This document shows positions 8,018 to 38,891 of a stretch of DNA of 46,452 bases, piece after piece (the stretch's first letter is position 1; the number at the start of each line of letters is the position of its first letter). The stretch covers positions 1 to 46,452 of the IMG/VR virus record IMGVR_UViG_3300020053_000020, one strand, 5' to 3'. Under the pieces are notes generated by a model that searched no databases, was not told the origin of the DNA, and saw nothing but the letters and a program-made list of their open reading frames with translations. The stretch comes from a virus. The position numbers and the translations under genes were made by a program.

Positions 8018-8602
8018 ATGGATTATGAAAAAGAACGAAAGATTCTCACGGATGTTGATGGTGTTCTTCTAGATTGGGAATCTGCATTTACAGCATGGAT
8101 GGGAGAACGTGGTTACACCCCAGTAAATCCCGAAGTATATAAACAATCAGTACGATATAACATTGAACAAGAATTTGCAGATTCATTAGTACAAACATTT
8201 AACGAATCAGCATGGATGGGATATTTAAAACCTTTACGTGATAGTGTAAATGCACTAGATCAGTTTTCAGCTAGTCACTGGCACTTTGAATGTATTACAA
8301 GTCTTAGCACAGATCACTGGGCAGGAGAACTGCGCCGCACAAATTTAAACCGTTGGTTTGGTAATACTGTTCGAAGAGTACAGTGTATTGCTACTGGTGC
8401 AGACAAAGACGATATCCTAAAAGAATACGAACCGGGACATTGGTGGATTGAAGACAAGCCCGAAAATTGTGAAGCTGGCCTAAGAGCTGGGCATAAACCT
8501 ATCTTAATTGATCATCCATTTAATCAGGAATACAATAATCCCGATGTCATTCGAGTAAAAGATTGGCAAGAAATTTATAATATCATAACCAAAAGTTCTT
8601 GA
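8018..8602 (+). CDS. HAD-superfamily phosphatase, 5'-nucleotidase-like
   Basis: 194 residues. Motif I is LTDVDGVLLDW with nucleophile D12 and acid/base D14; ATGADKDDIL supplies the motif III lysine region, and WWIEDKPENCEAG with ILIDHPFNQ resembles motif IV. The overall layout resembles deoxyribonucleotidase (NT5C)-type enzymes that dephosphorylate nucleoside monophosphates. The position directly after mazG would fit host nucleotide breakdown and recycling. Substrate is inferred, the HAD fold is clear. It ends just before a strong sigma70-type promoter. Confidence 0.75.
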   Translation: MDYEKERKILTDVDGVLLDWESAFTAWMGERGYTPVNPEVYKQSVRYNIEQEFADSLVQTFNESAWMGYLKPLRDSVNALDQFSASHWHFECITSLSTDHWAGELRRTNLNRWFGNTVRRVQCIATGADKDDILKEYEPGHWWIEDKPENCEAGLRAGHKPILIDHPFNQEYNNPDVIRVKDWQEIYNIITKSS

Positions 8603-21607: not shown

Positions 21608-22265
21608 ACTCTTTTATAGAAAGTATCTATATAAATTAAGAATACGCAACGATGTTGCCGGGCTGTTTAGAGGTCTTAATCTTAGCTATATTAAGTCTAA
21701 GTTAGACACTATGCAACAGTTTGCTGAAGGCGAGTTATCAATTCCAAGCCCCTTTAAATGGGGCTTGCGAACTCCTAAAAATGTATCTTTAGAAATGTTT
21801 ATGGATGCATGTGTATTATATCGTACATTTTTAGATAATAAAGATAACTGCACAATTAGAGTTGAAGGACATGTCATTGACATTTATTCAAACGAAGAAG
21901 ATTGGTTAGAGAAATTATCTAAGCAAATAAATTGCGAAGAGTTTCATGCTCCTAGCAATGAAAATAAAGAGTTTTTAAAAAACAATACTAATGTAGTAAT
22001 TTGTAATGAAGAGGTTGTGGAATGGCCATATCAAATATATTTTGGAAAATTTATTGATCCTAACTTTGCTAGTTACTGTGAAAATAATTCTAATATTAAA
22101 ATAGGAAAAACAGCATTAGAATGTGCTAGATCTAAAGGTTGGTGTTTAGGATTTTACTTTTGGACCACTACTGAAAAGCAAGCAATGCTGGCTCAAATAG
22201 CACTAGGCGGAGGCGTACAAAAAATCATAAAATATGTAAGTCAGTCCGAATTGCATAAATACTAG
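21585..22265 (+). CDS. Protein of unknown function (226 aa)
   Basis: ATG at 21585 within the end of the ClpA-like gene, overlapping it by 23 bases; a longer TTG start at 21561 is possible. The N-terminus is strongly basic and aromatic (KLFYRKYLYKLRIRNDVAGLFRGLN), then comes a mixed alpha/beta part including CTIRVEGHVIDIYSNEEDW and KGWCLGFYFWTTT. I do not recognise a family. The overlap suggests co-translation with the unfoldase, so an adaptor role is imaginable but not shown. A GC-rich hairpin lies within the gene at 21745-21767. Confidence 0.5.
   Translation: MNRFNTTKLFYRKYLYKLRIRNDVAGLFRGLNLSYIKSKLDTMQQFAEGELSIPSPFKWGLRTPKNVSLEMFMDACVLYRTFLDNKDNCTIRVEGHVIDIYSNEEDWLEKLSKQINCEEFHAPSNENKEFLKNNTNVVICNEEVVEWPYQIYFGKFIDPNFASYCENNSNIKIGKTALECARSKGWCLGFYFWTTTEKQAMLAQIALGGGVQKIIKYVSQSELHKY
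21745..21767 (+). repeat. Intragenic GC-rich inverted repeat (8-bp stem, 7-base loop)
   Basis: Arms CAAGCCCC (21745-21752) and GGGGCTTG (21760-21767) around TTTAAAT, perfect pairing with six G-C pairs in a very AT-rich genome. It lies within the gene at 21585. No T-run follows, so it is not a standard terminator. Confidence 0.6.
22254..22261 (+). promoter_or_regulatory. Candidate T4-type late promoter (CATAAATA)
   Basis: Seven of eight bases match the late consensus. It overlaps the end of the preceding gene and lies only 5 bases before the ATG at 22267, which has no ribosome site. A transcript from here would be leaderless or nearly so. Confidence 0.5.
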
Positions 22266-22616: not shown

Positions 22617-22880
22617 ATGAAGAATTTTATTAACATTGTATTTGACAAAATTGAAGAAGTAGATGATATTGTAGTCGAATCAGTTGCTACAAGTGCATCT
22701 AATGCTTTAATGGAAAGTGAAACTAATTATTTGTTATTTGAAGATGAAAGCAAAACAATCTTAGCAGTTGAAACTCATGTGCAACTAACTGAAGAAGAGT
22801 CTAATGAAGTTGCAGTTAATATTGCAAATACATTGTTTGACCTAGGATATGAGAGTTTTGATATCGAGGTAAGTGTATAA
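22617..22880 (+). CDS. Small acidic protein, unknown function
   Basis: 87 residues, strongly acidic (EEVDDIVVES, EDESKTILAVETHVQ, EEESNEVAVNIANTL), with a helical second half. The start MKNFINIVFDKIEEV has a vague resemblance to the capsid-targeting N-termini of the genes that follow, but it lacks a clear (I/L)-x-E end. Its stop overlaps the next start by one base (TAATG). It is possibly a scaffold or core component; no domain is recognised. Confidence 0.5.
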   Translation: MKNFINIVFDKIEEVDDIVVESVATSASNALMESETNYLLFEDESKTILAVETHVQLTEEESNEVAVNIANTLFDLGYESFDIEVSV

Positions 22881-24586
22881 TGAAATTTTTTCAAATTAAA
22901 GAAGCTATTAATTCTAAACAATTATTAGAAGCTAATACTGGATTAGAAGCTCAACATGCAATGCATGATATAAAAACAATTAGTGATGCATTACCAAAAG
23001 TTCCTACAGAAGAAGTACAACAAAAAAAGTCACTAATTAATGATCTTAAAAATATTAAACAATTTTTAAGTAATTTTATTGAAAAAGCAAAGGCTGAGTT
23101 AAATCAACCTGCTACAGAATCAATTGAAACTGAAGCTACTCCTGATGTTAAAAGAAAGTTAGATCTTCTTAGTCCAAATGCTAAAAAACGTGCACCAGCA
23201 ATATCTGCTACAGATAATCTTGATGAAGACGCACAAGAAATTTTAGCTGAAATTATGGATATGATCCAATGGGTCGAAGTTAATGTTGAAGATGAAAGTA
23301 AGAAAAAAGAAGGGATAGCTCGTGTTAACAGTTTGTTAGATAAAGTTACTAATAAATTCGTAGTACTGACACAAGAAAGAGATACTGCTCGTTCACAGCG
23401 TGATGAAGCAATTAATTTTGTGAAAGAAGTAACTGGTGTACTTGTACAATTAGGTAACAAAGTACAGGGCTTTGAAATTAAAGATCCATCTGAACTAAAA
23501 GGCAAAGATAAAACTTCTTATAATAAACTTGCAGTCAATGCAGAAAAGTTTACAAAGACTTTAAAGCAAGCATTGTTTGGTAAAATACTTGATATGCAAG
23601 AAGGAAGTGATGTAACCCAAGATGAGATCAAAGATTTTTTACAAGCCTGTGTCGACGGTAAAGTAATTAATATGCTAAGACTTATTTCTGTAAACAAAGG
23701 TAACGTTAAAGATTTTGTAAATCCAAACTATCAAAAAGTTTTTGACATTTTTGTAAAAGAAAATATCTTTAGTTATTCGCCAGGATCAACTTCAGGAGCT
23801 ATTGGCCCAGGAGAAATGGCATTATCGATGATGGGCAACCCTGCCGAAAAAGGTAAAAAGGGTGACTTGAAAATCGGCGATAAGGAAGTTGAAATTAAAG
23901 CTAGTGATCGAACAGGTGGGCGTTTTAATAGTAAAGCACTTGCAAAGGCAACTACAGGTTGGAAAATTTGGGCTGAAAAGATTAATCAAATTTGTCAAAA
24001 TGCTCCTAAAGATGCAACTATAAAAGTTAAACAAAAAGATGGCACATTTAAAAAAATGCCTATGACAAAATATGACGGTAATCAATATAATGTACTTAGA
24101 GGGAAAGCGAAACTAGGTAGTAGATATAACTGGAATGGCGGAGGTCTTGAAAAGTTAAACAATGAAGTATTAGAACCTTATTCAAACTTTGACATGACAT
24201 ATAATCTATTCCATGATACTATTAAAGGATTAGTTCAAAATTACGATCAAATTTCAAAACCGGCTTTTAACGACGATGGAACTCCAAATGAACATCATAA
24301 GCCTTTTGATCCAAGTGCGTTGATTGGCGGCGCAATTAAGCAGAATGGCGAAGTTGACATAGAAAAAATGAATGTTGCGTATTCTAAAATTGCGTATACC
24401 AGTTATCATTTAGCAGATGGTATTACTACTATCATGTTATTAAGAACTGATAATCTAAATTTCACTATAATTGACGACGGAGATGACTTAGTTGATAACA
24501 TGGAACGTAATCAAGTTTCTACAGGCGGCGGATTTACATGGAATGATGATCAGCAATCGCCGACACCAGGATATATGTCAGCATAG
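22880..24586 (+). CDS. Putative packaged protein with PD-(D/E)XK-like nuclease domain
   Basis: 568 residues. The N-terminus MKFFQIKE-A resembles the capsid-targeting/prohead-protease signal of T4 internal proteins. A long helical region follows (about 20-230, with charged coiled-coil segments). Then comes a candidate nuclease core: E312 in GPGEMALSMM, D329 in KGDLKIG, and E338-I-K340 in VEIKAS, the spacing of a PD-(D/E)XK active site. The C-terminal 200 residues are of unknown fold. If packaged and injected, it could act on host DNA or on competing DNA. Nuclease activity is inferred from motif spacing only. Confidence 0.6.
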   Translation: MKFFQIKEAINSKQLLEANTGLEAQHAMHDIKTISDALPKVPTEEVQQKKSLINDLKNIKQFLSNFIEKAKAELNQPATESIETEATPDVKRKLDLLSPNAKKRAPAISATDNLDEDAQEILAEIMDMIQWVEVNVEDESKKKEGIARVNSLLDKVTNKFVVLTQERDTARSQRDEAINFVKEVTGVLVQLGNKVQGFEIKDPSELKGKDKTSYNKLAVNAEKFTKTLKQALFGKILDMQEGSDVTQDEIKDFLQACVDGKVINMLRLISVNKGNVKDFVNPNYQKVFDIFVKENIFSYSPGSTSGAIGPGEMALSMMGNPAEKGKKGDLKIGDKEVEIKASDRTGGRFNSKALAKATTGWKIWAEKINQICQNAPKDATIKVKQKDGTFKKMPMTKYDGNQYNVLRGKAKLGSRYNWNGGGLEKLNNEVLEPYSNFDMTYNLFHDTIKGLVQNYDQISKPAFNDDGTPNEHHKPFDPSALIGGAIKQNGEVDIEKMNVAYSKIAYTSYHLADGITTIMLLRTDNLNFTIIDDGDDLVDNMERNQVSTGGGFTWNDDQQSPTPGYMSA

Positions 24587-24595
24587 GAAAATTAT

Positions 24596-25525
24596 ATGAA
24601 AAAAACTTTTAAAGATTATCTAGCAGAACAAGAAAAATTTAGAGATCACCTTGCTGAAGAAGAATATGACAGACAGCGTGACAAAGATGCAGTAAGTGGT
24701 AAGCCTCGCAAATTATCCGTAGGCTCTGGTGGCGGAAAACCTAAAGGTTATAGCAAAGATGAAGCTGAACAGGCCGCATTGGATAACATAAAGAAAATGC
24801 CGCAATTTTCTAAAGAAGATGCTCCTAAAGCATTAAAAGTAGCAGGTGGAGTAGCACTCGGTACACTAACTGGTGTTGGCGGAGCATTGATTGGACAAAT
24901 GTTTGCTCCATTCTTAGGTGGCGCGGCTGGCGGTATTGCTGGTGCTGTTGGAGGATATAAAGCAGGTGCAGGTGGAACTGATGCACTGTGGAACACTATA
25001 GCTAGTAAATTTGGAAGCGAAGAGCGAGCACAAAAAGTAGGTATGGCTCATGCTAAAGCCGCTGCCGATGGTGAAAAAACATTTACTGTTGGAGATAAAG
25101 AATATCCTGTAACTCTAAAACCAGAAAACGCAGGAAAAGCTGTACAAGCAGTTAAACAAGCTGTTGCAACAAGTGAAACTATTAGAATTAAAGAACTTGC
25201 AGGTATTAGTGAAGAAACTTACGACGGCGATGACTTTTATGAAGCATATGGTGACCTTTGGTTTAATGAAGACGAAATGCTAGACGAAGCAGAATATCAA
25301 GGACGCAAAGTCAAACTTGGCAAGCCAATGCGTGGCGATGTTAAAAAGTTTAAAGTATATGTTAAGAATCCTAAAGGCAACGTAGTTAAAGTTAACTTTG
25401 GTGATCCTGACATGAAGATTAAAAAAAGTAATCCAGCACGTAGAAGAAGTTTCCGTGCAAGACATAACTGTGATAATCCAGGACCACGTACTAAAGCACG
25501 TTACTGGTCGTGTAGAAAATGGTAA
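24596..25525 (+). CDS. Putative packaged protein with glycine-zipper segment and basic tail
   Basis: 309 residues. The N-terminus MKKTFKDYLAEQ ends its amphipathic start in L-A-E, a T4 prohead-protease-type site. Residues about 82-127 are a Gly/Ala-rich hydrophobic stretch with many GxxxG spacings (GGVALGTLTGVGGALIGQ), like membrane-inserting glycine zippers. After a linker with ELAGISEE, the C-terminal about 75 residues are very basic with two Cys and two Trp (RRRSFRARHNC, RYWSCRKW). This is a small module I associate with T4-like marine phage head proteins. Membrane or DNA interaction on ejection is inferred. Confidence 0.55.
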   Translation: MKKTFKDYLAEQEKFRDHLAEEEYDRQRDKDAVSGKPRKLSVGSGGGKPKGYSKDEAEQAALDNIKKMPQFSKEDAPKALKVAGGVALGTLTGVGGALIGQMFAPFLGGAAGGIAGAVGGYKAGAGGTDALWNTIASKFGSEERAQKVGMAHAKAAADGEKTFTVGDKEYPVTLKPENAGKAVQAVKQAVATSETIRIKELAGISEETYDGDDFYEAYGDLWFNEDEMLDEAEYQGRKVKLGKPMRGDVKKFKVYVKNPKGNVVKVNFGDPDMKIKKSNPARRRSFRARHNCDNPGPRTKARYWSCRKW

Positions 25526-25534
25526 GGAAGTAAT

Positions 25535-25879
25535 ATGAAGTTATTTGAATTTGTAGAAGATAGAATGGGACAAGAAAAAGATAAACTTCCGTACGATGTA
25601 GTCGAAGACATTCATTTTCATATGATTAGTGACGATTCATTTTATAGAAAACATTATCTACCATGTATGGATAGTTTAGGTGAAGATGGCATGGATGAAG
25701 AAAAAGTTATGCCTATGATTCATAAATGCGTTAATCACTATTGCAATAAATATGACATTAATAAAGAACCAAAAGATTTACTTTCTAACGAAGAAAAAGC
25801 GGACTTAGTAAAGAGAGTTTTAGATTACGAAAAAAATCCACCCAAAGGAGATGACGGTGCGTTTAAGACATCTATTTGA
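25535..25879 (+). CDS. Small putative packaged protein (114 aa)
   Basis: The N-terminus MKLFEFVED fits the short M-K-hydrophobic start with an acidic end seen in the neighbouring genes. The rest is helical with several His, Cys and Met (DVVEDIHFHMISDD, YLPCMDSLGEDGMDEEKV, IHKCVNHYCNKYDIN), possibly metal-binding. It overlaps the next gene by 23 bases. No known domain is recognised. It is grouped with the cargo locus by its N-terminus and position. Confidence 0.5.
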   Translation: MKLFEFVEDRMGQEKDKLPYDVVEDIHFHMISDDSFYRKHYLPCMDSLGEDGMDEEKVMPMIHKCVNHYCNKYDINKEPKDLLSNEEKADLVKRVLDYEKNPPKGDDGAFKTSI

Positions 25880-27302
25880 AGCTGAAACAAAAACAGCCGT
25901 TGCATCTTTTGGTAGACTTAATCCTCCTACCACTGGCCATAATGCTATGGTTGATGAAATTAAAAAAGTGCCAGGGGATCACTTTTTATTTTTAAGTCAT
26001 TCGCAAGGCGCTAAAAACCCAGATGCTAAACCTGGAACTAAAGCAGGTGAAAACAAAGATCCTTTAAGTTTTTCAGAAAAACTACCTTTGGTTAAACAAG
26101 CATTTCCGAACGTAAATGTAGGATATGCTGATGTTACTAAGATCTTTGACATGCCTGTAAAATTATATAAATTAGGATATAAAAAACTAATTATAGTTGC
26201 TGGCAATGATCGTATGTCTTCATATAAAAGTATATTTCCTAAATATAATGGTGTAGAAGGCGATCATGGTTATTACAAATTTGACAATATTGAATTTGTA
26301 GAACTTACAAGAGATGAAGAAGCTGAAGGTGTAGAAGGCATGAGTGCTAGTAAACTACGTCAGGCTGTTCGTAACAATGATTTTGAAAGTTTTAAAAAAG
26401 GATTAATTGCTGGTAATCCACAACAATTATTTGACACTATCAAAGAAAGACTTGCTGTAGATAGTTTAGGAGTAAAACAAGAAGAACCTATAGAAGAGCC
26501 TATAGAAGAGCCTGCAAAAGAAGGTATCGGTGCTATGGCTAAAGGTGCTGTAGGTCATGTTAAAAATGCCGCAACAGCAGGCAAATTAATTTTAAAGTAT
26601 GACCAAACAGGTAGAGAAGAAGATGCATTTGCGGCGATCAAGCACGGCTGGCAATGGATTAAAAATCCTAAGATGCGAAGAGGTATTGTAAATCTTGTTA
26701 AAAAATATGCAACAAAACAAGGACAAGATTGGCCAACTGCTGTAGCTCATATTAAAAAGAACACAGGAATAGATGTCTCTAATGTAAACGAATCACAAGA
26801 TACTCCTACAAGAGACAAAGAAGATTATAACGCAAAGAGAAAAGCATTACAAGATATACAAATGGATCCTAATACAGCTAACGATCCAGATCTAAAAAAA
26901 GAATTAATTCGACGTCTTGCGTCCTTAGAAAAAAATAAGCCACAAGAAATTGCCGAACTTAAAGTACAACAACAACGTCCAAAGATTGAGGTAATGTATA
27001 ATATTGCTGATCGTAAAGACGATAAACCTTTTCCATTAAGTTATAAAGATACTGGCGGCGCAAGCACAGGTGGACAAGTAATGATCACACCACAACAAGC
27101 ACAAAAATTTATTAAATTCTACGAACAACGAGCCGATGATGAAAAAATATTAATGCAAAAAGCATTGTCTAGTGTTAGCGGTACAATGAACTTGTTAAAG
27201 AATCTTGGTATGGAAGCTAATTCTATACTACCTAATAACCCAGATGCAGAAATTAAAAGTCCTGAAGAGAAACTTAGAGCTAATTTAGCAAAGGGCGTGT
27301 AA
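25857..27302 (+). CDS. Putative packaged nucleotidyltransferase (HxGH superfamily)
   Basis: 481 residues from a GTG at 25857. That start is preferred because AAAGGAG (25844-25850) lies 6 bases ahead of it, whereas the ATG at 25851 touches that site. It also gives MRLRHLFE-A, the cargo-type N-terminus. Residues about 13-200 form a nucleotidyltransferase domain: ASFGRLNPPTTGH (19-28 holds the HxGH-like site) and GMSASKLRQAV at 161-171, as in NMN adenylyltransferases and related enzymes. A tandem EEPIEEPIEEPA hinge follows, then helical regions. Substrate is unknown; NAD or other cofactor metabolism is possible. Confidence 0.7.
   Translation: MRLRHLFEAETKTAVASFGRLNPPTTGHNAMVDEIKKVPGDHFLFLSHSQGAKNPDAKPGTKAGENKDPLSFSEKLPLVKQAFPNVNVGYADVTKIFDMPVKLYKLGYKKLIIVAGNDRMSSYKSIFPKYNGVEGDHGYYKFDNIEFVELTRDEEAEGVEGMSASKLRQAVRNNDFESFKKGLIAGNPQQLFDTIKERLAVDSLGVKQEEPIEEPIEEPAKEGIGAMAKGAVGHVKNAATAGKLILKYDQTGREEDAFAAIKHGWQWIKNPKMRRGIVNLVKKYATKQGQDWPTAVAHIKKNTGIDVSNVNESQDTPTRDKEDYNAKRKALQDIQMDPNTANDPDLKKELIRRLASLEKNKPQEIAELKVQQQRPKIEVMYNIADRKDDKPFPLSYKDTGGASTGGQVMITPQQAQKFIKFYEQRADDEKILMQKALSSVSGTMNLLKNLGMEANSILPNNPDAEIKSPEEKLRANLAKGV
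26487..26510 (+). repeat. Tandem 12-base repeat (2 copies) encoding a Glu/Pro hinge
   Basis: Two exact copies of cctatagaagag at 26487-26498 and 26499-26510, preceded by a related GAAGAACCT, encode PIEEPIEEP. It separates the nucleotidyltransferase domain from the helical part and is likely a length-variable linker. Confidence 0.7.
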
Positions 27303-27529
27303 TGGATATTGAACGTTTAAAACAGCTTGCAGGTATAAATGAATTCAAAGGATGGACACAATACACTCCTGAGAATATCTCTCAGACTGGTACAGAAAAA
27401 CGTAAAATAGAACGCGAAAAAAATATTAAACCTGGTACAGATGAATGGTTTAAACTTTGGTTTAGTTTACCTCATATGACTGGTTCTGTTAATAAATCTC
27501 CAGGATTTCGAGGACGTAAACGCAAATGA
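27302..27529 (+). CDS. Small basic putative packaged protein (75 aa)
   Basis: Starts by one-base overlap (TAATG). The N-terminus MDIERLKQLAGINE-F carries the L-x-x-LAGI motif also found near residue 200 of the protein at 24596 (IKELAGISE) and ends in I-N-E, a possible prohead-protease site. The second half IKPGTDEWFKLWFSLPHMTG followed by a basic GRKRK end is a small module I associate with head-associated proteins of T4-like marine phages. It overlaps the next gene by four bases. Function unknown. Confidence 0.5.
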   Translation: MDIERLKQLAGINEFKGWTQYTPENISQTGTEKRKIEREKNIKPGTDEWFKLWFSLPHMTGSVNKSPGFRGRKRK

Positions 27530-29385
27530 AATTTCATCAAATCAAAGAAGGCGTAGGTAGAATTGTTAAAGGTGTTAATACAACACCTGATGTAGGTCCT
27601 GACGAAGTTAAAATACAAGCGGCTAAGTTTGGTAATACTGTTGACAAAGATGGACGACCACCTACACTAAGCAAAAAAGTTAAAGGTTCCAAAACAAATG
27701 TATTGTTTAACTTAGGTATGGTTGAAAGTGTTGAAGAACGCTCGCTTACCAAAAGTGAAAAAAATAAAAAAGAAAAGATAGTTAAAGGCATGAAAAAAGC
27801 CAAAGGCGATTTTAAAGATCGTTATGGCAAAGATGCAAAAGCTGTAATGTATGCTACAGCAACAAAGATAGCTAAAAAGAAAAAAAAGAAAAAAACTAAC
27901 GAAAGCAATATTACTAGAAAAGATCTAAAAGATCAAATTCTGCAAGGTATTAAAGTTGAATTAGAACACACTGACGATCCTAAAATTGCTTTAAAGATCG
28001 CTATTGATCATATAAAAGAGGATCCTGCATATTACGATAAATTAAAATTTATTGAAAATAAAGAAGTAGCGCAACCAAGTGAAATTTATGTTGACATGGA
28101 TGGTGTGCTTGCAGACTTCTTTGGTAGTTGGAAGAAACTTATTGGAAAAGATTGGCGTCAGATTGATGACATTGAACCAGCGTTACAAAAGATACGTGAC
28201 ACAGATGACTTTTGGTTAAAGATACCTCCTACTAAAAATGCAAATAATTTGTTAAGTATTATCAAACAAATTAAAGGTAGCTACAATATATTAAGTGCTC
28301 CTTTACCTAATGATCCTAATTCAGAACCTCACAAGCGCGAATGGATTGAAAAATATCTAAAAAGTTTTCCTCCTAATAAAGTTATCATTACACAAGACAA
28401 AGCGAAGTATGCAACCCAATCAGACGGTACACCTAATATATTAATTGATGACTTTGGACAAAACGTTGCTAAATGGGAAGCCGCAGGTGGTGTTGGATTT
28501 AAACATAAAGATCATAAGTTTGAAAGAACGGCTCGCAATTTAGCCGCTCATTTAAGACAGCCTGCAAAAGAAACTTATACAAGAGAAGAACTACCTCAAA
28601 TTAGTAGAAAAGATTTAAAACACATTTATTATACTGTAGAAACTATTAAAGTTGCAGACATAAAACCTATCCAAAAAGAACGCATCAAAGAAAATTTTAC
28701 AAGACAACTTAATCGTGTGCAAAAAGGAAAATACAGTCCAATTATTGTTGACTGTGAAAACAAAATTATAAATGGTCATCATAGATATGACATTATTAAA
28801 ATGTTAGAGATGGAAGAAATAACTGTTTATAAACTTCCTTTGTATGTTGAAAATCTAGTAGAGTTTAATAAATTAACTAAAAAAATAGGAGCAGGTGCTC
28901 TAGCAGGTGCAATGGCATTAGCACCTATGGGCAAAGCGTTTGCTGGAGATGCTCCTACTGATCCATTGCCTAACAAGCAGACATCTACTATGGTGCAGAA
29001 AGATGTGGGCGGTAAGCAAGATTTATCAAAAATTCAAGCACCAGTAAAAAATGATTTTTGGAAAGTTACAATAAACTATAAGGGCAAGGATGTTAATTTA
29101 AAACTACCATTTGACGCAGGAACCAATAAAAAACAGATAAAACAATTTGTTGACGATATGATGTCTCAACAAGGTGTAAAGGATTACGCAGTTAAGGATA
29201 TCGATACTCTTAATAAGGTTCCTATAGATCAATCCATACTGAAAAAGTTAGTTCAAGAATTAGAAAAAAGAAACGGAAAACAGAGTATTCCATATCTTGC
29301 CGGAATGGCAAAGAGAGCAGGTGCTAAACCAGGTGCAGACAATGCACACGCAACCGCGGCAATGAAGGCATACTTAGGAAAATGA
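27526..29385 (+). CDS. Putative packaged multidomain protein: HAD phosphatase plus ParB-like domain
   Basis: 619 residues starting MKFHQIKE-G, nearly the same opening as the gene at 22880. Domains in order: a basic region (about 65-125, KKKKKKT), a HAD-like phosphatase (about 185-340) with YVDMDGVLADFF carrying D190 and D192 and NILIDDFGQN, and a ParB/sulfiredoxin-like domain (about 365-440) with IINGHHRYDI around residue 416. Next come the string NLVE and a signal-peptide-like stretch (KKIGAGALAGAMALAPMGKA, ending AFA-GD), and finally a 140-residue tail. It may be a polyprotein cut by the prohead protease. Domain calls are by motif; no function is established. Confidence 0.65.
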   Translation: MKFHQIKEGVGRIVKGVNTTPDVGPDEVKIQAAKFGNTVDKDGRPPTLSKKVKGSKTNVLFNLGMVESVEERSLTKSEKNKKEKIVKGMKKAKGDFKDRYGKDAKAVMYATATKIAKKKKKKKTNESNITRKDLKDQILQGIKVELEHTDDPKIALKIAIDHIKEDPAYYDKLKFIENKEVAQPSEIYVDMDGVLADFFGSWKKLIGKDWRQIDDIEPALQKIRDTDDFWLKIPPTKNANNLLSIIKQIKGSYNILSAPLPNDPNSEPHKREWIEKYLKSFPPNKVIITQDKAKYATQSDGTPNILIDDFGQNVAKWEAAGGVGFKHKDHKFERTARNLAAHLRQPAKETYTREELPQISRKDLKHIYYTVETIKVADIKPIQKERIKENFTRQLNRVQKGKYSPIIVDCENKIINGHHRYDIIKMLEMEEITVYKLPLYVENLVEFNKLTKKIGAGALAGAMALAPMGKAFAGDAPTDPLPNKQTSTMVQKDVGGKQDLSKIQAPVKNDFWKVTINYKGKDVNLKLPFDAGTNKKQIKQFVDDMMSQQGVKDYAVKDIDTLNKVPIDQSILKKLVQELEKRNGKQSIPYLAGMAKRAGAKPGADNAHATAAMKAYLGK

Positions 29386-29843
29386 GAATATTCGAACTAA
29401 TAGAAAACAACGAAAACTTTGCTAACGCAACAAAACAAGATTTTCTTGCATTTAAAAAATTTGTCAAAGGTACTACACATTTATTTAAGAATTATAATAA
29501 TATGTCCGAAGAGGAACAAGACGAGTTGCTTGCAGATCTTGTAAAATTACAATTTGATAGTAATTTAATGAATAGTTTTCCTAAGTGGAAAGAGTATGCT
29601 ATTAAAACCATGAAAAATTTGGATGACGAAAGAATTCAAAAAGTATTTAAACAGGCAGGACTTGTTGAAAACTTTGCTGACGGTAAGAAAAAAGAAACTA
29701 TAGAAGAAACTATTCGTAAGCAAGGTGACAAGTATGTTATCTACAGTAAAGACGGTAAAAAGAAACTTGGCACATACGATAGTCGTAAAGCAGCCGAAAA
29801 GCGTCTAGGACAAATAGAGTATTTTAAACATGCTGGTAAGTGA
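29382..29843 (+). CDS. Putative packaged protein (153 aa) with small basic C-terminal module
   Basis: Four-base overlap with the previous gene. The N-terminus MRIFELIE-N is a close fit to a capsid-targeting signal with L-I-E cleavage site. A helical central region follows. LVENFADGKK near residue 98 repeats a motif found at the start of the next protein. The C-terminus (GDKYVIYSKDGKKKLGTYDS, then KAAEKRLGQIEYF) is a compact beta-beta-alpha module I recall from several T4-like marine phage proteins. The gene overlaps the next by 14 bases. Function unknown. Confidence 0.5.
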   Translation: MRIFELIENNENFANATKQDFLAFKKFVKGTTHLFKNYNNMSEEEQDELLADLVKLQFDSNLMNSFPKWKEYAIKTMKNLDDERIQKVFKQAGLVENFADGKKKETIEETIRKQGDKYVIYSKDGKKKLGTYDSRKAAEKRLGQIEYFKHAGK

Positions 29844-29870
29844 GATTACAGAAAACTTTGCTGACGGTAA
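29667..29870 (+). repeat. 20-base direct repeat in two adjacent genes (164-base separation)
   Basis: gaaaactttgctgacggtaa occurs exactly at 29667-29686 and 29851-29870, encoding ENFADGK in both proteins, each time right after a potential cleavage site (L-V-E, I-T-E). A shorter copy gaaaactttgct is near 29413. This points to duplication or recombination of a module boundary. Confidence 0.8.
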
Positions 29871-30036
29871 AGTAAAAGGCAAAAGCAGACCAGGACGAGT
29901 AAAGAAGTCTGGTGCTAGTTGCAATGGTAGTGTTACAGCATTACGCAAACGTGCTAAAAATGCAAGTGGTGAAAAGGCTAAAATGTACCACTGGTGCGCC
30001 AACATGAAATCAGGTAGAAGCAAAAAAGGTAAATAG
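29830..30036 (+). CDS. Small basic putative packaged protein (68 aa)
   Basis: The N-terminus MLVSEITE-NFADGK ends in I-T-E and repeats the ENFADGK segment of the previous gene. The remaining part is highly basic with two Cys (KSGASCNGSVTALRKRAKNA, MYHWCANMKSG, ending KKGK), likely nucleic-acid binding and possibly metal-binding. It is a recurrent module of T4-like marine phage head-region proteins as far as I recall. If cleaved after E8 the product would be a DNA-condensing internal peptide, which is inference. Ribosome site is poor; coupling through the 14-base overlap is likely. Confidence 0.5.
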   Translation: MLVSEITENFADGKVKGKSRPGRVKKSGASCNGSVTALRKRAKNASGEKAKMYHWCANMKSGRSKKGK

Positions 30037-30040
30037 TATT

Positions 30041-31108
30041 ATGAGATTAAGAGAAATTACATCTAACATTAAACAGCCAATTAACGAATTTGATATTTTA
30101 GGCGGATTAAAATGGCTTGGCAGGGCCGCACTAAGTGGGCCAGCAACTGCCGCACAAATTGCGTTAACACCTAGTTCTACATCCGCATGGGACACTACTG
30201 ATGCTCCGGCTATGTTGTATAATAAATTACGTGCAGACGGACGAGATGAAGCAACTGCAAATGCCGCGGCATTAGAACTTAGAGATAGAATTAGTCGAGG
30301 CGATCACACCGCTATTCAAACATACAGAGATGCTACAGGGGACACTGGCCAATTGCCATGGGACTTACAAGATTTACAAACTTCAATTGATCAAAGAATT
30401 GCATCAGGTGGCGGACGTGGAAACGGTGCCGCTGAACTTGCTCAAAGGCGAGCAGATGCGGCAAATGGTGTTCCAGGAGCAGGTCCTGCTCCAACAGACA
30501 GTCCAAAAGCAGATACTACTGCTCCACAACAGCCATCTACACCTGGTGCAAGTGATTCATCTAATGCGCCAAGTAGCACAACGGATACTAGACCATCAAC
30601 TACTGCTCCTAAGACTACTACTGCTCCTAAACAACCAGATGCTGTTCCAACTTCTGTTGCAAATTTGCCTAATGTTGTTAAAGACGCAGGCGCCGCTCAA
30701 GCACTAGCACAATCTAATCCACAAACATCAGCACAATGGGCTGATGGTATTGCAAAAGCAACTGGTGGTACGCTAGGTGCATCAACTGTACAGTCGTTAG
30801 CACAAGGTGCTATGAAATATGCTTTGCCAGCGGCAGCTGTAGTTGCATTGTTATACGGTGGTAAAAAATTGCTTGATTATGCAGGTTCTAAAAAGAAAAA
30901 AGAATCAATAGGTGAAAATAGCTCTGCTCCAATAGTTGCCGCTAATGTGGCATCTGTTGCTAATCCTCAACACGCAAAAGGCCATGTTGGAAAAGATAAA
31001 AATGGCTTACCAAAGAAAAACTCAAAGAAACAACCTGGTACTAATTTAGTAATAAATGCACTAGATGATGACGAGGGCTTCTTTGGCTCCAAGACAATCA
31101 AAAGATAA
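30041..31108 (+). CDS. Putative packaged protein with Pro/Thr/Ser-rich linker and membrane-like segment
   Basis: 355 residues. The start MRLREITSNIKQPINE has the family opening, with I-N-E as the first cleavage-like site. Residues about 10-130 are helical and Ala-rich. Residues about 145-210 are a low-complexity P/T/S/A linker with TTAPK-type repeats. A hydrophobic segment with GG follows near 265-285 (YALPAAAVVALLYGGKKLL), then a Lys-rich tail. This layout (head, linker, membrane-like helix) could suit a protein passing through or inserting in the envelope on ejection. No known domain is recognised. Confidence 0.5.
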   Translation: MRLREITSNIKQPINEFDILGGLKWLGRAALSGPATAAQIALTPSSTSAWDTTDAPAMLYNKLRADGRDEATANAAALELRDRISRGDHTAIQTYRDATGDTGQLPWDLQDLQTSIDQRIASGGGRGNGAAELAQRRADAANGVPGAGPAPTDSPKADTTAPQQPSTPGASDSSNAPSSTTDTRPSTTAPKTTTAPKQPDAVPTSVANLPNVVKDAGAAQALAQSNPQTSAQWADGIAKATGGTLGASTVQSLAQGAMKYALPAAAVVALLYGGKKLLDYAGSKKKKESIGENSSAPIVAANVASVANPQHAKGHVGKDKNGLPKKNSKKQPGTNLVINALDDDEGFFGSKTIKR

Positions 31109-31111
31109 ATA
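31104..31111 (+). promoter_or_regulatory. Candidate T4-type late promoter (GATAAATA)
   Basis: Seven of eight bases match TATAAATA; it overlaps the stop codon of the upstream gene. The 16 bases taaatactgtatagga at 31106-31121 are identical to those at 1404-1419. The ATG at 31129 follows at a typical distance. Confidence 0.7.
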
Positions 31112-31128
31112 CTGTATAGGAAAACACA

Positions 31129-32091
31129 ATGAGAGAAAAACATTTAAAAGAAACTGGTTTAGCCGATATGGCATTTAAGGTTGAACAAGACCACGAAGTT
31201 CAAATGGCTCGTGCCGAATTATATAAACTAGCTAAGTATGCAATCAAATTACACGAAATGCTTAAAGGTGTATCAGAGCAACAAGGTTTAGAAGGTTGGG
31301 TGCAAGCTAAGATTACAAAGGCCGCTGACTATGTTTCAAGTGTTTATCATCATATGGATTACGAAACTAAGTTTGAAGAAGTAACAGAATCCAATAAATC
31401 AATTGTAGAAGGCATCGACTCTCCAATAGTGACGATGACTATTCCAAACACAACTCCTGAGATGGCAGAAAAAATGGAGAGAATTGCTAACGAAAAGAAC
31501 ATCGAGTTTTCAAAACAAGGAAACACTGTTTTTTTGAAGGGTAAAAGAATTGATATGACAATGCTTACAACTAAAATGGCTATTGCTCAGACAAACATAC
31601 CAATGGTTCCTGTTGAACCAAAGCGTGGCACTCCAGGTAATCCAATCGGCATGTCTAAGGATCAAATGGCAGATCCTGCTAATCAAGACCTAATGCAAAA
31701 AGCAAGACGTATGGATGCATTAGGTGATAGTGTAAACTATAAAGGTTTTTTAAGCAGTTTATTAGAAGAAAAAGTAACAAATAAGTTATCTGAAAAAGTA
31801 GAAATGTGTCCAAAAGCATGTTGCGGGAAACCTGTAACAGAATGCTCATGTGGACCAGATTGTAAACATTGTGATTGCTACGAAAAGAACAAGGCAATGA
31901 AGGAATCTAAAAATAACCTATGTGAAGATTGCGGTAAAGAAAAACTTACCAAAACAGAAATGACAGAAATTGCTAATCTAGAAGAAGGCAAAAAACACGG
32001 CAATAGTAAAGTTTATGACAAATGCTGGAAAGGCTGTCGTAAAGTTGCAGGCAAAAAACGTGGTGAGCCAGGCTCGTGCAAGTGTGACTAA
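31129..32091 (+). CDS. Putative head-region protein with Cys-rich metal-binding modules
   Basis: 320 residues, behind its own late-promoter-like element. The N-terminal part is helical and includes GWVQAKITKAADYVSSVYHH, a segment I recall from T4-like marine phages. The middle has a small alpha/beta part (EFSKQGNTVFLKGKRIDMT). The C-terminus holds about 15 cysteines in clusters (CPKACCGKPVTECSCGPDC, CKHCDCYEKN, CEDCGKEK, KCWKGCRKV, CKCD), probably binding several metal ions. The start MREKHLKE-T is a weak match to the cargo signal. Co-location with the preceding genes suggests a packaged or core protein. Confidence 0.5.
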   Translation: MREKHLKETGLADMAFKVEQDHEVQMARAELYKLAKYAIKLHEMLKGVSEQQGLEGWVQAKITKAADYVSSVYHHMDYETKFEEVTESNKSIVEGIDSPIVTMTIPNTTPEMAEKMERIANEKNIEFSKQGNTVFLKGKRIDMTMLTTKMAIAQTNIPMVPVEPKRGTPGNPIGMSKDQMADPANQDLMQKARRMDALGDSVNYKGFLSSLLEEKVTNKLSEKVEMCPKACCGKPVTECSCGPDCKHCDCYEKNKAMKESKNNLCEDCGKEKLTKTEMTEIANLEEGKKHGNSKVYDKCWKGCRKVAGKKRGEPGSCKCD

Positions 32092-37748: not shown

Positions 37749-38460
37749 CATATTAATAACTGGCCATAAAGGATTTATTGGAACTGTACTTACTAGTCGA
37801 TTAGATAAAAAATTTGATACACTAGGATTAGATATCAAGGAAGGCGACGATATTTTAACTTGCGATTTACCGCATCCCAGTGTTGTAGATGTAGTTATAC
37901 ACCTAGCCGGTATTGGAGGAGTTCGAGAAAGTCTAGCTGACCCTAAAAAATATTGGGATACTAATGTAGAAGGTACTAAACGTATCTTAAATTATTATCC
38001 AAATGCAAGAGTGCTAGTCGCAGGATCAAGCTCACAATACGAACCAGAATTAAATCCGTATGCGGCAAGTAAACATGTAATTGAGTTTATTCCTCATCCT
38101 AATGTTTGCTTTATGCGATTCCATACAGTATATGGCCCTAGTCCAAGAGCAAATATGTTCTTTGATAAGTTACTAAACAATAAACTAGAATATGTTACAG
38201 CTCATAAAAGAGACTTTATTCATATTGAAGATCTTTGCGATGGAATTGAATTGCTTATTGACAGTCAAGTACAAGGTCCTATTGATATTGGTACAGGAAC
38301 TACTGTTAGTATCCAAGAAATAAGACCCGATTTACCTGTTAAGTTAAATACTATTGGTGAACGACAAGTTACCCAGGCAAATACAAGAGCAATGAGAACA
38401 TTAGGCCACAGACCTAAATACACAGTAGAAAACTTTTTAAAAGAACGAGGCTTTAAATGA
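37741..38460 (+). CDS. NAD-dependent sugar epimerase/dehydratase (SDR)
   Basis: 239 residues of the extended SDR type: TGHKGFIG (residues 7-14, NAD-binding GxxGxxG), VVIHLAGIGG, SSSQYE and the catalytic Y107-AAS-K111 in NPYAASK, RDFIHIEDL near the substrate end. It is shorter than typical UDP-glucose 4-epimerases (about 330), mainly in the C-terminal lobe. It overlaps the preceding dehydrogenase by 8 bases and the cytidylyltransferase by four, so the three probably serve one pathway for an activated sugar or polyol used on DNA, the virion or the host surface. The product is not determinable. Confidence 0.85.
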   Translation: MTNILITGHKGFIGTVLTSRLDKKFDTLGLDIKEGDDILTCDLPHPSVVDVVIHLAGIGGVRESLADPKKYWDTNVEGTKRILNYYPNARVLVAGSSSQYEPELNPYAASKHVIEFIPHPNVCFMRFHTVYGPSPRANMFFDKLLNNKLEYVTAHKRDFIHIEDLCDGIELLIDSQVQGPIDIGTGTTVSIQEIRPDLPVKLNTIGERQVTQANTRAMRTLGHRPKYTVENFLKERGFK

Positions 38461-38891
38461 AAATAGGCTTTACATGTAGTACATTTGATCTGCTTCATGC
38501 AGGACATATACAAATGTTACGAGATGCAAGAGAACAATGTGATTATCTAATTTGTGGATTACAAATTGATCCCAGTATTGATCGGCCAGAAAAGAACTCA
38601 CCTGTTCAAACAATTGTTGAAAGACATATTCAACTCAGTGCAGTTAAGTATGTTGACGAAATTATTCCTTATCAAACAGAAACTGATTTAGAAGATATTC
38701 TAAATATGCTTCATATTGATGTAAGGATTCTTGGCGAAGAATATAAAAACGGCAAATTTACCGGAAGAGCAATATGTGCCAAGCGAGGAATTGAACTTTA
38801 TTTCAATAAAAGAGAGCATAGATTTAGCTCAAGCGATCTACGCAAAAGAGTATCGAACAGAGAAGGTAATGCCTATCATCCCCAGGGATAA
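38457..38891 (+). CDS. Cytidylyltransferase (glycerol-3-phosphate type)
   Basis: 144 residues, close in size and motifs to TagD-like enzymes: GFTCSTFDLLHAGHIQML with the HxGH site at H14-H17, and RFSSSDLRKRV at the end in place of the ISST signature. It would attach CMP to a phosphorylated small alcohol such as glycerol-3-phosphate. Four-base overlap (ATGA) with the epimerase gene. Its stop lies just before a strong early promoter. Substrate is an inference from family, not seen in the sequence. Confidence 0.85.
   Translation: MKIGFTCSTFDLLHAGHIQMLRDAREQCDYLICGLQIDPSIDRPEKNSPVQTIVERHIQLSAVKYVDEIIPYQTETDLEDILNMLHIDVRILGEEYKNGKFTGRAICAKRGIELYFNKREHRFSSSDLRKRVSNREGNAYHPQG

Follow-up and report, generated by a model that had tools for sequence, protein, structure and literature searches.

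Why would consecutive phage genes that encode unrelated proteins begin with the same kind of short sequence? The question is raised by a block of plus-strand genes, starting at position 22880, in a 46,452-base virus record of IMG/VR (IMGVR_UViG_3300020053_000020; the whole of this record is the window). The window represents part of the genome of a T4-like marine phage; it encodes a gp43-like DNA polymerase, an ATP-dependent (ClpA-like) protease, an endolysin, MazG and tail proteins. An earlier note had proposed that eight consecutive genes of the block join a T4-type capsid-targeting tag to unrelated cargo. The comparison is with the T4 internal proteins IPI, IPII and IPIII and with Alt, in which unrelated proteins likewise stand behind a short N-terminal tag that a gp21-type protease removes (PMC9026906, PMC12373910). 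We conclude that the block is probably a cassette of cargo packaged in the phage head and working like the T4 internal proteins. By analogy with T4, we infer packaging, cleavage and injection for the window phage.

All eight open reading frames (ORFs) exist with the N-termini the earlier note had given, 25857 being an internal ATG of an ORF that starts at 25851. A hydrophobic-x-E tag that is kept in relatives is found in six block genes. These encode a 568-amino acid protein beginning MKFFQIKE/A (22880..24586; a slash marks the predicted cut); a 309-amino acid protein beginning MKKTFKDYLAE/Q, followed by HLAE/E, with a glycine-rich segment and a C-terminal phrog_7595 module (24596..25525; few relatives); a 481-amino acid cytidylyltransferase/NMNAT-like protein whose MRLRHLFE/A abuts the domain (25857..27302; phrog_3041, 1.5e-35); a 619-amino acid protein beginning MKFHQIKE/G, with a GRIVKGVNTT module, DUF5661, an NT5C phosphatase and a ParB-like domain (27526..29385); a 68-amino acid basic protein beginning MLVSEITE/NFADGK (29830..30036); and a 320-amino acid protein beginning MREKHLKE/TGLAD (31129..32091). 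Variant forms of the tag occur in a 75-amino acid protein beginning MDIERLKQLAGINE/F and carrying an LKxLAGI motif (27302..27529), and in a 355-amino acid protein beginning MRLREITSNIKQPINE/F (30041..31108). Two of these tagged genes, 27302 (MDIERLKQLAGINE) and 31129 (MREKHLKE), are absent from the earlier list. The remaining two genes encode proteins of 114 amino acids (MKLFEFVE/D, 25535..25879) and 153 amino acids (MRIFELIE/N, 29382..29843). As read from these N-termini, the block holds about nine tagged, very different genes.

The head genes that such a system would call for are found in a longer record, IMGVR_UViG_3300022926_001804 (145,946 bases; called G001), which matches the window at 99.84% identity across 33.8 kb. 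G001 encodes a gp21 prohead protease (PF03420, E = 1.1e-28) in a region outside the window, the gp23 capsid protein (PF07068), and between them a gp22-like scaffold named by its position; the Pfam families of its gp21 and gp23 are T4-type. Protease and gp23 were both present in 5 of the 11 records searched for both families. The other six lack the protease, and five of them also lack gp23 while one (G008) has a partial gp23 match; a gp21 protein query found no match in five contigs (four without a gp23 match, one with a partial one). Because gp23 is also missing or partial there, the records without protease are probably fragments. By cytidylyltransferase protein the nearest named phages are Methylophilales phages of the Melnitz group, at ~40% identity; megablast of the block and tblastn of the 22880 protein against named phages gave no matches.

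Tags are concentrated in the block. In G001 the pattern M[KR]-x(1-8)-hydrophobic-x-E matches 7 of 10 called block ORFs and 4 of 138 elsewhere (Fisher p = 1.4e-7), and strict (L/I)xE matches 6 of 10 and 9 of 138 (p = 6e-5); since the genes had been seen before either pattern or the block limits were fixed, these p-values are only a guide, and the ORF caller substituted an antisense ORF for 29830. The corresponding region of Melnitz gave 3/8 versus 7/205 for the M[KR] pattern and 5/8 versus 21/205 for strict (L/I)xE. In T4, used as a positive control, the M[KR] pattern matched 17 of 279 ORFs, ipII and ipIII among them. It also matches ipI, at a place other than what we take to be its cut site, and to our knowledge most of the 17 have no known packaging.

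Comparison across relatives is the stronger test. Loci around homologues of block proteins were taken from IMG/VR (at least 80, at least 79 and at least 80), with gene starts called by a rule blind to the tag. Hydrophobic-x-E falls within the first 13 residues in 96 of 104 N-termini of cytidylyltransferase homologues and mostly abuts the domain, as in MRLRQLFE/SPRTAVMAFGR, MKFKDIKE/APKTAVLAFGR and MKSFKQFVTE/APQEAVFTFGR. Among controls it was seen in 0/17 exonucleases and 4/27 ClpA proteins; the control patterns for DNA polymerase and PhoH matched nothing and are void in this test. One group of homologues has ~300 amino acids, with weak polymerase-beta-like matches, inserted before the nucleotidyltransferase, and the tag still comes first (MRFKDFIKE/SIIDIPRRTYA). 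Of 53 proteins that share the GRIVKGVNTT module of the 27526 protein, 40 are likewise tagged; many different tags precede the same module, and many of the 13 untagged proteins have a longer prefix with an E shortly before the module. The same holds for 27 of 37 proteins with the GLAD/DHEVQM module of the 31129 family (MREKDLKE/TGLAD, MREKHLKE/GLAD, MRQKDLKE/GLAD) and for 53 of 66 proteins of the NFADGK family (29830). Relatives of 22880 have prefixes of differing sequence and length, with hydrophobic-x-E close to the conserved start; the 22880 protein itself has a second site, QLLE/A, directly before the conserved ANxGLEAQHAM. In the 24596 protein, HLAE/EEYDRQRD aligns with MRFRELIKE/EGYDTQRD of a relative (L131). 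What is conserved is the pattern of the tag, while its letters vary. Phage C48C1 offers a side case: its annotated cytidylyltransferase start (L020 7984-8049) lies too late, and an upstream GTG gives the tag IKNFSQYLLEE before the domain.

A survey of 4,057 distinct ORFs (loci L031-L269) gave 76 families with at least eight members, of which 11 have an M[KR]-tag rate of at least 0.5 and 51 a rate of zero, some of the latter being antisense ORFs. DNA polymerase scored 0/66, and ClpA 0/68 by M[KR] and 3/68 by strict (L/I)xE. One large cytidylyltransferase family scored 17/58 by M[KR] and 41/58 by (L/I)xE, and one of the zero-rate families is that of 27302, which carries the LAG motif instead. 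The number of tagged genes per locus, with all ORFs counted in 39 loci having enough sequence around a distinct cytidylyltransferase, has a median of 4 and is highest, at 8 by a conservative count, in the window phage. The set is large, at the upper end among relatives, but it does not form a class of its own.

Hydrophobic-x-E also recurs inside the proteins, where modules meet. The NFADGK module stands alone with its own tag, as in 29830, or within larger proteins, mostly tagged. At its internal junctions, E occupies P1, the residue before the predicted cut, in 66 of 66 distinct cases, and hydrophobic-x-E is complete in 54; P3 is hydrophobic in 82%, versus 18–30% at P10–P4 and P2. For the EYQGK module (phrog_7595, present in 24596), 56 of 58 distinct internal junctions carry E at P1 and 55 show hydrophobic-x-E in full; P3 is hydrophobic in 97%, versus 5–48% at other positions. 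Control domain starts with at least 12 cases have hydrophobic-x-E directly before them in 0–3%. Too few cases to use were available for the control starts DUF5661 (n=1), TGREEDAF (n=1) and SGASC (n=3) and for the junctions RSLTK (n=2) and GLAD (n=5, 4 with E), and LAGIxE has its E by construction. The junction pattern fits the protease rule: hydrophobic P3, free P2, E at P1. In the block such junctions are LDE/AEYQGR in the 24596 protein (25280..25288) and LVE/NFADGK in the 29382 protein (29661..29669; GLVE/NFADGK), and LAGISE/E in the 24596 protein (25196..25213), a scaffold-tail-like motif and possible internal cut. On this pattern, additional gp21 sites probably lie between the modules of several cargo proteins.

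The alternative that survives best is that internal hydrophobic-x-E belongs to folded modules and stays uncut, with processing confined to the N-terminal tags; we hold it to be a serious possibility, somewhat short of even. E is near-invariant before NFADGK and EYQGK whatever precedes it, and a structural role would give the same. Internal copies of the GRIVKGVNT module have no E at P1 (0 of 6 cases), and in phage SPN3US 13 of 14 mapped cuts remove N-terminal propeptides, the remaining one being the protease's own (PMC10052503). However, the positions obey the protease rule, which conserved positions elsewhere in these proteins do not, and a similar sequence follows the predicted gp23 site.

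That similarity belongs to a set of links between cargo, capsid and scaffold. T4 gp23 has FLTE/A at residue 65, in keeping with its 65-residue propeptide (PMC9026906). The gp23 of G001 has YLAE/NATAGATSAGNVATL early in the chain, and those of G001, G006, G009 and G010 all have L-x-E/[NA]ATAG there (YLAE/AATAG, HLKE/NATAG and ALNE/NATAG in the three besides G001). Cargo modules of relatives begin xATAG with an E before it, as in INE/FATAGATSAGNIASVANP. The ATAG pattern gave 37 matches, with E at P1 in 31 (one being G001 gp23) and hydrophobic-x-E in 24; the six without E were judged to be chance matches because the continuation of the module is missing. At the other end, the gp22-like proteins of the same four contigs terminate in ELKRLAGLK, DIRRLAGLN, DIKRLAGI and QLKKLAGLK, and this LAG-type C-terminus is absent from gp22 of T4, Melnitz, S-SCSM1, S-SZBM1 and G003. 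LKxLAG[IL]-type motifs occur three times in G001 ORFs (the 27302 N-terminus, inside 24596 and at the gp22-like end) versus 0.32 expected from shuffled proteins, and N-termini picked by the LAG motif have LAG[IV]xE in 60 of 71 distinct cases. The obvious reading of the shared LKxLAGI would be a common binding site on the growing head.

From these links and the junctions we tentatively propose, at not quite an even chance, that the cargo consists of polyproteins packaged by mimicry. A copy of the scaffold's LKxLAGI tail would give entry to the core, and gp21 would split the chains at hydrophobic-x-E junctions, which in relatives precede a segment resembling the N-arm predicted for mature gp23, into enzymes and basic, perhaps DNA-binding, modules, so that one gene would yield several injected products.

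The same motifs could instead mean that the tagged proteins are core or structural components of the prohead, packaged and cut like T4 gp67, gp68 and gp22 and never delivered as effectors. Two block proteins do share LKxLAGI with the gp22-like scaffold, cargo of relatives shares the ATAG segment with gp23, and some modules are small and basic. A core would nevertheless have no need of an NT5C phosphatase, a nucleotidyltransferase or a ParB-like domain, nor of the zeta-toxin-type kinase and poly(A) polymerase of relatives, and in T4 many of the proteins tagged in this way end up in the host by ejection (PMC9026906); we consider this explanation unlikely.

Virion mass spectrometry comes from cyanophage relatives of the window phage. 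A virion-associated cytidylyltransferase/NMNAT is described for S-SCSM1, S-SZBM1 and S-CREM2 (PMC9602691, PMC9146016, PMC10665884). In S-SCSM1 the consecutive ORFs 89–93, together with 95 and 97, are virion-labelled (PMC9602691); their cassette lies between mazG and primase, outside the main structural region, and ORF91 is the NMNAT-like homologue, beginning MKSFLQFLKE/A. For S-SZBM1 the table of detected proteins includes the cassette products 136, 139 and 140; S-CREM2 virions yielded the cytidylyltransferase (ORF154) along with ORFs 155, 156 and 160. S-SCSM1 ORF93 (L027 42626-42835) ends RTFKEFLEYIE, a tag-like sequence at the C-terminus; we take the protein to resemble DUF3008. As a general virion marker the simple N-terminal pattern was rejected, strict (L/I)xE matching 10 of 48 virion-labelled S-SCSM1 genes versus 33 of 280 called ORFs (the record lists 48 such genes; the paper states 45 proteins).

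The authors of two of these proteomes, S-SCSM1 and S-CREM2, raised the choice between enzymes carried in the virion and enzymes co-purified with it, and the enzymes could accordingly be ordinary cytoplasmic metabolic proteins that stick to purified virions. This is quite improbable for the cassette: five consecutive products are virion-labelled in S-SCSM1, but not those of the mazG, helicase, primase and nrdA genes next to them, and the window phage encodes relatives of both enzyme types in separate genes without tags. That the N-termini are alike by chance, or through a shared bias to basic, hydrophobic and AT-rich gene starts, is highly improbable, for although the pattern is loose enough to match those 17 T4 ORFs, families from one and the same set of contigs have very different tag rates, E is kept at a conserved domain boundary and the tag stays first after a domain insertion.

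Several observations weigh against the packaged-cargo reading or parts of it. The tag of 25535 is present in only 9 of 39 relatives, whose N-termini are similarly hydrophobic without keeping the E; the gene failed the conservation test, was rejected as conserved cleaved cargo and is doubtful as cargo at all. Here the domain is kept and the first residues are not, which the earlier note had named as telling against its idea. Nucleotidyltransferase homologues without a usable tag also occur in L083, L092 and HTVC008M; that of HTVC008M begins MKTLKELLRKK, without E, and the L083 contig has the protease and two well-tagged genes near its untagged homologue (MLTFQEYVTE/A and MKTFKSYLME/N). Two of the five consecutive virion-labelled S-SCSM1 products, those of ORFs 92 and 93, lack an (L/I)xE tag (YME stands at residue 13 of ORF92), and ORF30 (L026 44215-44535), which lies among structural genes with a textbook tag, MKTFKQFMSE/S, is not virion-labelled. 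In S-SZBM1 only 140 (MRFRQFIIE/A) of the three detected cassette members is tagged, and 133, 134, 135, 137, 138, 141 and 142 are unnamed in the text and table available from the paper. Co-purification, as raised by the proteome authors, belongs here too. The gp23 site of G001 falls in a different column from T4 E65, with an alignment gap spanning the region, and is equivalent by position only; the ATAG modules of relatives do not occur in the window's block; and the internal GRIVKGVNT module departs from the junction rule, as given above.

With 25535 set aside, comparison gives good support to the earlier claim of a T4-type targeting tag on unrelated cargo: a protease is encoded, the pattern is conserved, the tag is independent of the domain behind it, and relatives of the cassette are found in virions. 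The narrower claim of a shared tag is borne out by five of the eight genes, which keep hydrophobic-x-E in relatives; besides 25535, it went astray at 30041, where a cut after residue 8 was rejected, this residue being S and, in the sole N-terminal relative (L218, 28% identical), N. Both proteins have hydrophobic-x-E just before F, at residue 16 in 30041 (INE/F), after which the cut is predicted, and at residue 17 in the relative (LKE/F, in PVLKE/F). The 29382 N-terminus has no relatives, matching only its own contig.

If the block is packaged cargo, the short hydrophobic and basic tag would associate with the prohead core while the head forms, as in T4, and gp21 would then cut after hydrophobic-x-E, a site pattern that conservation shows, and free the cargo within the head. 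Proteins with gp21 sites between modules may be split there as well. The cargo would leave with the DNA at infection and act early, the likely actors being the cytidylyltransferase/NMNAT-like enzyme, the NT5C-type nucleotidase joined to a ParB-like domain, the glycine-rich protein and the small basic modules.

In our reading, the block holds internal proteins of the T4 style that have grown into a multi-enzyme set, perhaps polyprotein-like. T4 offers an enzyme among its tagged cargo, Alt, and its internal proteins block type IV restriction enzymes (PMC12373910). Unlike T4, the window phage gathers its tagged genes, about nine, in a single cassette, with large proteins of several domains among the products; it also has hydrophobic-x-E at internal junctions and a motif in common with the end of gp22, and its relatives have a module in common with gp23. 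What would go beyond the known kind is the internal junctions, together with the sequence motifs held in common with capsid and scaffold. The cyanophages S-SCSM1, S-SZBM1 and S-CREM2 have a homologous enzyme (in S-CREM2 by description, not sequence) and a corresponding virion-detected cassette; the tag suggests how such enzymes may be packaged, whereas the papers' passages on cyanophages give no mechanism. Ejection proteins of giant phages (SPN3US, PMC10052503; phiKZ and 201phi2-1, PMC9026906) resemble the block in that many head proteins are cut after x-E and some propeptides have several cut sites. SPN3US, however, uses an AxE motif and propeptides of 20–254 residues, while the window phage has hydrophobic-x-E, tags mostly of 8–17 residues and a PF03420 protease. 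Polyvalent proteins (PMC5512222) are likewise multidomain and thought to be delivered with DNA, but a Pfam scan of ten window proteins found no signature domain of that class at E <= 0.05.

Among the literature matches listed, no title or abstract opening describes such tags in marine T4-like phages; a search for capsid targeting in cyanophages gave one paper, the Black review, and the words cytidyltransferase, internal protein and prohead are not used in the available part of the Sullivan 2010 cyanophage comparison. Cytidylyltransferase and other enzymes turn up repeatedly in the virion proteomes of ocean cyanophages. For these the tag rule suggests a way into the head, and with it one could propose cargo for phages of uncultured marine bacteria directly from their sequences. 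If the internal cuts and shared scaffold and capsid motifs are real, the machinery of head maturation has been turned into a system for loading and splitting cargo. In T4 itself, gp61.1 (L270 18966-19130) begins MKTFKEFIKE/D, similar to IPIII, and is a candidate further internal protein; its gene lies between genes 61 and 41, and the cyanophage cassettes likewise lie between helicase/mazG and primase genes.

The functions that the earlier note had assigned to the cargo fared unevenly. The nucleotidyltransferase, NT5C phosphatase and ParB-like labels are upheld by PHROG (cytidylyltransferase and ParB-like) and Pfam (NT5C and DUF5661). Searching solved structures with a profile built from the nucleotidyltransferase alignment returned no real match. 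For 22880 the nuclease label found no support: looking for a PD-(D/E)XK nuclease gave no Pfam or PHROG evidence, no PDB match by Foldseek at E <= 0.001 and no convincing PDB match by profile search. The protein carries an E..GD..ExK motif, and its AlphaFold model (mean predicted local distance difference test score, pLDDT, of 62.6) has a helix-strand-strand-strand-helix run at residues 310–372. The window also holds an untagged phosphatase-like gene (8018-8602; phrog_420, also matched by 27526) and an untagged nucleotidyltransferase-like gene (38457-38891, phrog_7878), which fit a separate role for the tagged versions. Related loci add genes for a zeta-toxin-type kinase, DUF6267 and a poly(A) polymerase/CCA-adding enzyme.

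Two late-promoter-like sites on the plus strand would serve the block region. CATAAATA (22254..22261) starts 13 bp before gene 22267, which leads into the block, and with so short a leader is weak for 22267 itself; GATAAATA (31104..31111) lies 25 bp before 31129. In G001, 17 of 26 NATAAATA sites fall 8–110 bp before a called gene start, versus 5.4% for random positions; NATAAATA resembles the T4 late-promoter consensus. G001 has one more tagged gene beyond the window (113708-114475, MKVFDILTE/S), with TATAAATA 29 bp upstream. Elsewhere in G001, at about 56300-67600, several members of a run of minus-strand ORFs have N-terminal CxxxC-type motifs that suggest radical SAM enzymes.

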